From contig WYAU01000073.1 in the NCBI GenBank assembly GCA_011525665.1, positions 1 to 59,927 on the forward strand: DNA of 59,927 nucleotides, in the 5' to 3' direction. The stretch is from Candidatus Brocadia sp. (lineage in GTDB: Bacteria > Planctomycetota > Brocadiia > Brocadiales > Brocadiaceae). Position 1 is the stretch's first letter. Each line of letters starts with the position of its first letter. A program made the position numbers and the translations under genes. Shown here in pieces: positions 45,712-49,413 of the stretch. The notes beneath the pieces were generated by a model. The model ran no database searches and was not told the origin of the DNA. It saw only the letters and a program-made list of their open reading frames with translations.

Positions 45712-45763
45712 GGCGTGCCATGTCACACAAGTGTGACGTCACACAAGTGTGACATGGCACGCC
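45712..45763. repeat. 52-base near-perfect palindrome with tandem hairpin core
   Basis: Two directly adjoining copies of the 16-base hairpin GTCACACAAGTGTGAC are framed by GGCGTGCCAT and ATGGCACGCC. The whole is palindromic except for the AA loops of each core. It begins 33 bases after the lipoprotein stop. No T-run follows, so termination is not obvious; a paired protein-binding site or cruciform is possible. Confidence 0.85.
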
Positions 45764-46004: not shown

Positions 46005-46033
46005 TTGACTTTGATGGGGGGATTCGTTACTTA
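46005..46033 (+). promoter_or_regulatory. Promoter of the riboswitch-metalloprotease unit
   Basis: TTGACT (46005-46010), a 17-base spacer and TACTTA (46028-46033) give a plausible sigma-70 promoter. It starts transcription about 20 bases before the riboswitch-like fold. Confidence 0.55.
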
Positions 46034-46057
46034 TAGCCCATTTAGAAATACCGTCAT

Positions 46058-46160
46058 CACGATAAGGGCAAAACCTGAGTGATCAGGCGACGCAAAGTAA
46101 AAGGGTCTTAATAATAGCTGTTTAAGCCGTTGAAACGCTTTCAATGGCTTTCAAAAGATA
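46058..46160 (+). ncRNA. c-di-GMP-I (GEMM) riboswitch-like leader
   Basis: The conserved GEMM-I core is visible in order: AAGGGCAAAACC, a hairpin CCTGA-GTGA-TCAGG closed by a GNRA tetraloop (46074-46087), then CGACGCAAAG, then AGGGTCTTAA. This corresponds to GGCAAACC...GNRA...GACGCAAAG...GGNCT in known c-di-GMP-I aptamers. A second stem (GCCGTTGAAA/TTTCAATGGC, 46126-46148) follows, and directly after it comes a strong intrinsic terminator. The exact aptamer end and the ON/OFF sense cannot be fixed by eye. Confidence 0.8.
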
Positions 46161-46213
46161 GCCTTACTGCCGAAGATGTTTTTTATGAATATCTTTGCAG
46201 TAAGGCTTTTTTG
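46161..46213 (+). terminator. Intrinsic terminator forming the riboswitch expression platform
   Basis: GCCTTACTGC (46161-46170) and GCAGTAAGGC (46197-46206) form a perfect 10-bp stem with a 26-base loop, followed by TTTTTTG. It lies between the aptamer and the metalloprotease start at 46357, so it would stop transcription before the gene unless the aptamer fold prevents it. Confidence 0.88.
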
Positions 46214-46356
46214 TTTTGGGGGGGGAAAGGAGGTGTTTGTCAAAAAAAGTGCGTTTGTGGAGGGTGTTGTCTTTGGAACACCGTGTATAAAAGGATAGTG
46301 GTGTGTCAAAAATTTGATTTATGAGGATGAGTATTTTGAAAAGGAGGAGTAATTTT

Positions 46357-47616
46357 ATGAAAAGAGCATTTGGAATACTGGTGTCGTTAATAACGTTTAT
46401 GGGAATTACTGGAAACAATTCTTTTGCACTCGAAGGTGAGGGCGTTCCCTATATCTACGAGGGGCAAAAATATATTGTATCGATTAACAATGATGCTATC
46501 CTTCGGGTAGAGCCGCTTTCTGATTCTGACGAAGCGCTTCCTTGCACTTCCGAATCGCCGTGCCTTTACGATGATCTTCCCTTTGGAACCGAGGAGTACT
46601 CAACCAGTGGTGGAAGTTGGCCTGTAACGGGTTTTACTTACAGTGTCGTGGGGACTGGCAGTCCGGATATTGCGTGGGCGTCTGAAAGGGGAATTATTGG
46701 GCAGGCATTTGGTCTCTGGTCCAATGTAACGAGGGTATACCCTCATGAGGTATTGGATGACGGCGGTTGCGCTGGCAATATTCGTATCTGGTGGGCTGTG
46801 GGAGATCATGGTGACGGATATCCGTTTGACGGGCCAGGTGGCGTGTTGGCGCATGCCTTTTATCCCCCACCGGTCAATGCGGGGTGTATTGCCGGGGATA
46901 TCCATTTTGACGACGCTGAAACATGGGTAACGCCCTCTTTTGGAGGGGGAGGGGTTGATTTATTAACCGTTGCGGCACATGAAATCGGCCATTCACTTGG
47001 ATTAAGGCACTCTACGGACCCCAATGCCCTGATGTATCCATACTATACGGGAAGAAGGGCATATCTTTCTTATGATGACATTAAAGGTATTCTTGCAATT
47101 TATGGGAATCGCTGGAATGATTGCATCTTCCAGATCGAGCTTGTTGATGATGCGGGCGGTCCCGGTCATGGAAGTTTCAGAATTTTAGAAGGCGGTGTAA
47201 CGGTAAGGCTCAGAGAGAGGGGTACGGGTTTGCTTCACAACCGCCCGCTACCAAGGGCAGCTAATCTTGGTCTTGGTACCGTGGTGGCGGATGTTGATGG
47301 GGTATTGGCACGCGACGCTTATGGCGCTCAATTTGACGGATACTGGTGGCATGTAGGAGATCTTTGCAGGGCACAATTTGGCCTGCCTGCTACGAGAGAG
47401 GATATTGATCAGATTCAGGTGGATATGACCATTTCCAATAACGTGCTTACCGATCCGGAGACTGTGCGTTTATCTTTGAATGGGCAGGTTTTAGGGGACA
47501 TCGTAATAAATCCGGGAGATGTTGCTAAAAGCGCTACCTACCCCGTGCATTTTGTAAATCCATCCCTTAAAGCGCAGGCCTTTGGAGAAAATATTTACAA
47601 TGACGGCAAGCACTAA
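46357..47616 (+). CDS. Secreted matrixin-type zinc metalloprotease
   Basis: 419 residues from the ATG at 46357, which has AAAAGGAGGAG before it. A signal peptide (MKRAFGILVSLITFMGITG, cleaved near NSFA) is followed by a catalytic domain with HEIGHSLGLRH (HExxHxxGxxH, residues 208-218) and the Met-turn NALMYPYY, the metzincin/matrixin pattern. A C-terminal part of about 150 residues after the catalytic domain has beta-rich segments without a known domain. It would act outside the inner membrane or on the cell surface. Expression appears to be gated by the c-di-GMP-like leader and terminator upstream. Confidence 0.9.
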   Translation: MKRAFGILVSLITFMGITGNNSFALEGEGVPYIYEGQKYIVSINNDAILRVEPLSDSDEALPCTSESPCLYDDLPFGTEEYSTSGGSWPVTGFTYSVVGTGSPDIAWASERGIIGQAFGLWSNVTRVYPHEVLDDGGCAGNIRIWWAVGDHGDGYPFDGPGGVLAHAFYPPPVNAGCIAGDIHFDDAETWVTPSFGGGGVDLLTVAAHEIGHSLGLRHSTDPNALMYPYYTGRRAYLSYDDIKGILAIYGNRWNDCIFQIELVDDAGGPGHGSFRILEGGVTVRLRERGTGLLHNRPLPRAANLGLGTVVADVDGVLARDAYGAQFDGYWWHVGDLCRAQFGLPATREDIDQIQVDMTISNNVLTDPETVRLSLNGQVLGDIVINPGDVAKSATYPVHFVNPSLKAQAFGENIYNDGKH

Positions 47617-48037
47617 ATTGCAATCAATGGGGAATAATGGAAAAAAAATACCGTGGAGGAGGGGTTTTTTGCCCCTCCTCCTTTTTCTGTTCCTTTTGGG
47701 ATTTCCCACCACGGATGTCTATTGCCTTATACAGCGGCTGGAGAATTCAGAACTCGTTGCCCGCTCAAATCTCGTTATATATGGTGTAGTTAATGAAGTT
47801 CGCTCAAAGGGCGAGAGCCGGGAGGCGGTTGTCGCAGTCGAGTGCGTGCTGAAGGGCAAACTTCCTCCGCAGGGCGAAGTAAGGGTCATATTTTCGCCTG
47901 GCATGGCAGAAAGTCCTCTTTTTGAAAAAAATGAAGGCGTTCTTCTCTTTTTGACAGAAACTACCGCGGGGCTGTTTCAGACAGTGGGAGGACTCCAGGG
48001 TAAATTTTCTTTTGGCAAGTCCGCATATCGGGAATAA
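47600..48037 (+). CDS. Secreted protein of unknown function, encoded after the protease
   Basis: Starts at ATG 47600 or TTG 47582 (both overlapping the protease 3' end) or at ATG 47627. A basic stretch and a Leu-rich segment (FLPLLLFLFLLGFP) form a signal peptide. The mature part of about 100 residues (LVARSNLVIYGVVNEVRS, VAVECVLKGKLPPQGEVRV, GVLLFLTET) is beta-rich and resembles small extracellular domains that accompany bacterial matrixins, but I cannot name it. The overlap suggests a two-gene operon with the protease. A terminator-like hairpin lies within its signal-peptide codons. Confidence 0.75.
   Translation: MTASTKLQSMGNNGKKIPWRRGFLPLLLFLFLLGFPTTDVYCLIQRLENSELVARSNLVIYGVVNEVRSKGESREAVVAVECVLKGKLPPQGEVRVIFSPGMAESPLFEKNEGVLLFLTETTAGLFQTVGGLQGKFSFGKSAYRE
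47655..47687 (+). terminator. Terminator-like hairpin inside the signal-peptide codons
   Basis: GGAGGAGGGG (47655-47664) pairs perfectly with CCCCTCCTCC (47672-47681), followed by TTTTTC. It is 38 bases after the protease stop codon and within the first codons of the next frame, so it could attenuate expression of the second gene. Confidence 0.75.
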
Positions 48038-48989: not shown

Positions 48990-49413
48990 TTGACTGGGAC
49001 ACAGCTAAACAACGCAGATTATCCAGATTATAAGGATAATAAATACAAAGAATTGACAGAGAAGATTATTAATATTTTCTATAAGGTTTATAATAAACTT
49101 GGCTGTGGTTTTCTAGAAAAGGTTTACGAAAATGCAATGATGAAAGAACTAAAGAAAGCAGGTATTCCGACTGCTTCCCAAGCTCCAATAAAAGTATTCT
49201 ATGAGGGTGAAATTATGGGTGAGTACTTTGCCGATATACTTGTTGACGATAAGGTAATTGTTGAAATAAAAGCCGCGAAAAGTTTGGTAATAGAGAATGA
49301 AGCGTAGTTGTTAAACTATTTAAAAGCATCGAAAATTGATGTTGGACTCTTACTTAACTTCGGCCCCCAAACCAGAAATAAAACGTAAAATATTTGATAA
49401 TTTTAGAAAATAG
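48990..49413 (+). pseudogene. GxxExxY-family protein with nonsense codon and frameshift
   Basis: The frame from TTG 48990 gives YKELTEKIINIFYKVYNKLG, CGFLEKVYENAMMKELKKAG, and a PD-(D/E)XK-like core DILVDDKVIVEIKAAKSL. It then stops at TAG 49305-49307, where relatives have Gln (EAQLLNYL). Homology continues as LLNYLKASKIDVGLLLNFGP, then after a shift as KPEIKRKIFDNFRK to 49413. A single C-to-T change plus one base of indel explain the damage, so the decay is recent. Inverted repeats flank it. Confidence 0.85.

Follow-up and report, generated by a model that had tools for sequence, protein, structure and literature searches.

A predicted c-di-GMP ON riboswitch ahead of a secreted karilysin-type matrixin and its small secreted partner in Candidatus Brocadia

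A c-di-GMP-I riboswitch aptamer that shares its 3′ part with an intrinsic terminator lies ahead of the gene for a secreted karilysin-type matrixin and the gene for a small secreted partner protein in Candidatus Brocadia sp. The locus is found in a window of 59,927 nucleotides, the whole stretch of DNA that we analysed (contig WYAU01000073.1), and its features are collected in Table 1. The arrangement of aptamer and terminator predicts that the protease is made at high c-di-GMP. We think it probable, with some reserve about the whole, that the locus is a transcriptional c-di-GMP ON switch for an operon of matrixin and partner, which would act in surface or matrix remodelling in the sessile state. 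An earlier note on this DNA had described a riboswitch and terminator before a secreted matrixin, and this part of it is supported, with the same arrangement kept in the genus Jettenia.

Table 1. Features of the riboswitch, matrixin and partner locus (positions in the window)
Feature	Position	Strand	Basis or remark
c-di-GMP-I aptamer	46057..46174	+	RF01051 score; alignment to RF03167
P2 hairpin with GUGA tetraloop	46074-46087	+	within the aptamer
Aptamer helix P3, 5′ strand GUAAAAGGGUCUU	46097..46109	+	pairing taken from the RF03167 alignment
Switching strand AAGAUAGCCUUACUGCCGAAGAU	46155..46177	+	doubles as P3/P1 3′ strand of the aptamer and terminator 5′ arm
Intrinsic terminator overlapping the aptamer	46160..46212	+	3′ arm 46191-46207; six-T run to 46212
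Secreted karilysin-type matrixin (M10), 419 aa	46357..47616	+	PF00413, E 1.7e-42; signal peptide
Zinc-binding motif HEIGHSLGLRH, then Met-turn ALMYPYY	46978..47010 (HEIGHSLGLRH)	+	sequence; alignments
Small secreted partner, 136 aa, best start ATG 47627	47627..48037	+	matrixin-linked family without a name
Stem-loop in partner signal-peptide codons, then T5	47655..47681	+	candidate attenuator, protease versus partner

The aptamer is identified by a match to the Rfam family RF01051 (c-di-GMP-I, GEMM-I) at 46057-46174 on the plus strand, with a score of 55.7 bits (E 3.2e-8 for the window) compared to a curated cut-off of 35 bits. The earlier note had claimed a GEMM-I-like aptamer and had proposed a covariance search as a check, and the search agrees with the claim. 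No other match was found by Rfam at curated thresholds in the entire window. The 191-nt leader folds with a z of -5.6 compared to shuffled sequences. The positions that contact the ligand are canonical in the alignment, with G20 at 46067, A47 at 46094 and C92 at 46170, in what we take to be the Vc2 numbering. The aptamer also has the canonical GCAAAG, compared to GCGAAG in the consensus of RF03167 (c-di-GMP-I-GGC), and a permissive search of the leader with RF03167 gave 52.5 bits, under the cut-off of 59 for that family. These features bear on whether the ligand might be another cyclic dinucleotide, such as 3′,3′-cGAMP, whose riboswitches are closely related to c-di-GMP-I aptamers (PMC9262584). 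However, position 20 is G here but A in the cGAMP class, both A47 and C92 are canonical, and it is RF01051 that scores well above its cut-off while RF03167 does not reach its own; we consider a ligand of this kind very unlikely. By its sequence and alignments, 46057-46174 is a c-di-GMP-I riboswitch aptamer, and binding of c-di-GMP is predicted.

The sign of the switch is predicted from the overlap between this aptamer and the terminator. Because the switching strand is common to P3/P1 and to the terminator 5′ arm, the ligand-bound aptamer and the terminator are mutually exclusive; ligand should thus block termination, and an ON switch is predicted. When growing transcripts were folded computationally in their ligand-free form, the strand from 46155 paired upstream until ∼46198 and downstream from 46207. 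The earlier note had described a perfect terminator with a T-run, which was nearly right: the T-run and a fully paired 10-bp core are present, but the stem (46160-46207) has one bulged base. Matches of animal microRNA families to the terminator in a permissive Rfam search were rejected as chance matches to a long hairpin. In the mechanism that we propose, the nascent RNA would refold when ligand is absent, with the 3′ half of the aptamer becoming the 5′ arm of the terminator, and transcription would halt. When c-di-GMP is bound, P3/P1 would be held, the terminator would be blocked, and RNA polymerase would continue into the matrixin and partner genes, which we infer are co-transcribed as a two-gene operon. 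ON regulation at high c-di-GMP is a prediction from structure that is well supported by the sequence.

The promoter claimed in the earlier note was not recovered. A consensus scan of the 100 bases upstream found none, and the best sigma-70-like site in this region scored 8/12, a score that 86% of shuffles attain. Farther upstream, a long palindromic hairpin (45712-45763, -43 kcal/mol) contains two copies of a 16-base unit, GTCACACAAGTGTGAC; a third copy elsewhere in the genome lies ∼200 bases 5′ of a different c-di-GMP riboswitch (C71:6509).

This genome has many switches of this kind. We find 35 RF01051 matches over the cut-off, and the ON platform, which consists of the switching strand GCCTTRCYGC, a complementary arm 19-32 bases farther downstream, and a T-run after it, is present in 34/34 complete copies, a count that omits the one copy (C102) cut by a contig end. 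The terminator 5′ arm begins 15-30 bases within the aptamer in this genome. Some variants of the switching strand are compensated in the arm, for example CCTTGCTG with CAGCAAGG, and CTTACCG with TGGTAAG. A search with the platform pattern gave 22 matches in the window's genome and 9-41 per genome in ten congeneric species, and the reversed control gave 0. The number of c-di-GMP-I copies per genome is 20-56 in these ten congeners, 21-28 in the genus Jettenia and 1-21 in the remaining genera of the family. We found no description of a genus-wide expansion of class I switches in the open-licence literature that was searched. With 20-56 class I switches per genome, all of the ON design in the window's genome, these switches may provide a handle on the c-di-GMP regulon of organisms in which manipulation is difficult.

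The P3 tip (46110-46154 in the window) varies in length and sequence among the paralogous aptamers, and palindromes of the GTTTAAAC type are frequent in it. Riboswitches occur in series before one gene at C17:10963/10676, C17:9212/8997 and C58:18772/18107. At one locus (L038), riboswitches are clustered before genes for exported proteins, for a PEP-CTERM-like protein and for an exosortase (PF09721). On contig C60, the riboswitch before a PAS-GGDEF gene allows possible positive feedback.

Among the genes downstream of the riboswitches are those for cytochromes, for proteins of the Kelch, FG-GAP, Ig-like and beta-helix kinds, and for a pseudopilin-like protein. Others encode an exosortase together with a PEP-CTERM-like protein, a contractile sheath, a sigma-54 regulator and the PAS-GGDEF protein; the genome has 20 GGDEF matches in all. 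By a crude hydrophobicity rule, 18/31 first genes look exported compared to 10/45 genes of the window (p = 0.0016), an enrichment that is indicative, since the background is one window only. Since the switch ahead of the matrixin is one of ∼35 of equal sign, mostly before exported proteins, the most likely role of the protease would be in processing or remodelling of the cell surface or matrix when the cell is sessile and c-di-GMP is high. The protease might instead be offensive or nutritional, directed against the proteins of neighbours in dense communities, with the partner protecting the producer. The regulon also includes a contractile-sheath operon (C15) as well as genes for an M23 peptidase protein (C14) and for an amidase (C85), and potempins shield the surface of the producer, all of which we count in favour of an attack on neighbours. 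However, no sequence feature indicates a foreign substrate, and the regulon has numerous structural proteins of the surface as well as an exosortase/PEP-CTERM cluster. We therefore regard an offensive or nutritional protease as unlikely and prefer a role at the cell surface or matrix.

The predicted sign also bears on the role in detachment that the earlier note had proposed by analogy with Clostridioides difficile, in which class I switches turn OFF upon c-di-GMP and ZmpI is among the repressed genes (PMC6200980). In such a device, the protease would be repressed at high c-di-GMP, freed when c-di-GMP falls, and would cleave adhesins as ZmpI does, and a class I riboswitch before a secreted metalloprotease does work this way in C. 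difficile (PMC6200980). However, the C. difficile class I OFF layout is absent from the window, as the terminator overlaps the aptamer with no intervening antiterminator, so that ligand should prevent termination; the window protease is not of ZmpI's family; and all 34 sister copies have the ON layout, one of them before the PAS-GGDEF gene. The two readings make opposed predictions, the C. difficile analogy that the protease is made at low c-di-GMP and the sequence that it is made at high c-di-GMP. A protease predicted at high c-di-GMP argues against a device for release at low c-di-GMP, and we consider the functional analogy unsupported and the detachment device very unlikely.

The first product of the putative operon is a matrixin on the basis of its PF00413 match, zinc-binding motif and Met-turn (Table 1), in agreement with the signal-peptide-bearing HExxHxxGxxH protease of the earlier note, which had also correctly claimed a secreted partner. 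The matrixin starts at ATG 46357, with AGGAGGA in front; the longer ORF start at 46321 is not favoured. The protein has, in order, a signal peptide, a propeptide with CTSESPCLYDDLP, the catalytic domain and a C-terminal domain of 160 residues. A sequence search finds the pro-form of karilysin (PDB 4r3v, E 7.5e-45) as the nearest solved structure; the predicted model of the whole matrixin is weak (pLDDT 51.7), and karilysin tops the fold search with this model for the catalytic part only. The propeptide CTSESPCLYDDLP aligns both with LYDNGP of karilysin (LYDxxP) and with PRCGxPD, the cysteine-switch motif in other relatives from bacteria, and the segment so aligned is SPCLYDDLP. Since the propeptide resembles that of karilysin and can be aligned to the MMP-type cysteine switch found in relatives, the matrixin, a protease like the human MMPs, is probably a latent zymogen and would be exported as such. 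No matrixin relatives were found in the viral contigs that were searched.

The second product is encoded 10 bases after the protease stop (47616 to the ATG at 47627), and thus adjoins a karilysin-like protease as potempin genes do. The partner has no match in Pfam or NCBIfam, but a profile of its family finds relatives in 32/392 Planctomycetota genomes. These relatives are linked to zinc proteases: 10 of the 16 divergent Planctomycetota loci of the family have an HExxHxxGxxH/D gene within ∼1.5 kb, when 0.2 would be expected from the density of zincins in the fetched regions of the window's genome. The order of the two genes differs, as the partner is 3′ of the protease in the window, but 5′ of the protease in most divergent loci. 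This matrixin-linked family, whose tested members have no Pfam or NCBIfam name, is a target for testing as a bacterial regulator of matrixins.

The fold of the partner may be that of an OB-fold. NtA, a domain of agrin, is an OB-fold that resembles the N-terminal TIMP domain. NtA (PF03146) matches 3/18 family members below the cut-off (best E 7.3e-5), while the window member has no match, and of four weak matches in an NtA search of 294 genomes the best three are family members that adjoin matrixins. A TIMP (PF00965) search of the 294 genomes gave only noise and no match to the partner. Neither the window partner nor its Jettenia orthologues have the N-terminal Cys-x-Cys with which TIMP chelates the zinc of the protease, and a lipobox was not found in them either. 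PDB sequence searches with the partner family found nothing relevant, including among potempin chains, and the AlphaFold model of the partner, made with two sequences as input, has a pLDDT of 40. The weak NtA matches thus hint at a fold.

Two precedents make a TIMP-like role reasonable: karilysin is bound by potempin A, the product of a neighbouring gene (PDB 8b2q; PMC7296668), and in the Listeria Mtz-Tim system the metzincin cleaves and releases a TIMP-like partner, whose action is on the cell wall (PMC8235301). We propose the partner as a candidate OB-fold (NtA/N-TIMP-like) modulator or inhibitor of the matrixin; in the mechanism set out above it may be of this fold and would most likely restrain or otherwise regulate the protease. 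For the Listeria Tim, it is cleavage by its metzincin that has been shown rather than inhibition (PMC8235301), and the partner here might likewise be released by the protease, as a substrate or effector, or else be a chaperone needed in export or folding. Besides this precedent, the position of the partner after the protease here and before it in most divergent loci fits any tightly coupled role. A relative, karilysin, has an inhibitor of its own encoded next to it (PDB 8b2q; PMC7296668), which argues the other way, and we find a substrate, effector or chaperone somewhat doubtful. With the partner as an inhibitor, the system would be a bacterial counterpart of animal MMP and TIMP, in which secreted Planctomycetota matrixins stand beside a small inhibiting OB-fold protein and, in Brocadiaceae, the pair is under a c-di-GMP ON switch that belongs to a genus-wide expansion to 20-56 class I switches per genome, driving a regulon of exported proteins; we put this forward tentatively, as possible rather than probable.

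The output of the partner might be set apart from that of the protease. The stem-loop in the signal-peptide codons of the partner has a folding energy of -24.4 kcal/mol, the lowest of 23 signal-peptide regions, the next being -17.0. A stem-loop of -23.4 to -25.1 kcal/mol occupies the corresponding position in Jettenia, where its sequence differs. This element is a candidate partial terminator or translational brake, which might keep partner output below that of the protease.

The closest named relative of the locus is in Candidatus Jettenia ecosi, in agreement with the planctomycete of the earlier note, and the order of riboswitch, matrixin and partner is identical in the Jettenia genomes (L057 and G015-G017). 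The matrixin and partner are ∼63-66% and 56-57% identical to the Jettenia proteins, respectively. When the leaders are compared, the switch core has hardly changed, in contrast to the P3 tip and the remaining leader, which have diverged. The matrixin-partner pair was not found in any of the ten congeneric species; it was thus gained or lost within the family and is not a core function in the genus. In genomes of the genus g6 (L075, L076, L077 and L104), the partner is beside a matrixin-like gene in which the third zinc ligand is changed (HELGHSLSLDD or similar), and no riboswitch was found within the fetched stretch. Elsewhere in the window, a GxxExxY-like ORF with an early TAG stop (48990-49307) is flanked by the MlaE and ABC genes and resembles a decayed insertion. 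A search for hydrazine synthase alpha (PF18582) gave no match in the near-complete genome; as the control genomes gave none too, this result carries no information on anammox metabolism.

The switch is most like the GEMM-I riboswitch of pilM in Geobacter metallireducens, an ON switch in which the terminator competes directly with the aptamer (PMC9262584). In both, aptamer and terminator are mutually exclusive, ligand prevents termination (a prediction for the window), and the terminator sequesters the C that pairs with the ligand. However, pilM senses cGAMP, whereas the window pocket is canonical for c-di-GMP; the target in the window is a protease operon, and its genome has 35 platforms of one design. 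To our knowledge, the ZmpI locus of C. difficile has no co-encoded partner. Cdi-1-12/ZmpI is alike in having a class I c-di-GMP riboswitch before a secreted zinc metalloprotease, but is OFF where the window switch is predicted to be ON, and the protease families are unrelated (PMC6200980). Karilysin of Tannerella forsythia (PDB 4r3v) is the closest solved protease, with the LYDxxP alignment in the propeptide and an adjoining gene for a small exported protein. Potempin genes, however, are directly upstream and encode lipoproteins (PDB 8b2q; PMC7296668), while the window partner is downstream, has no lipobox and is not similar in sequence to any PDB chain. Finally, Listeria Mtz-Tim (PMC8235301), compared by description, is alike in its secreted metzincin with a small TIMP-like gene immediately after it, but differs from the window pair in its CI/Cro-like regulators, its phage context and its lipoprotein partner.
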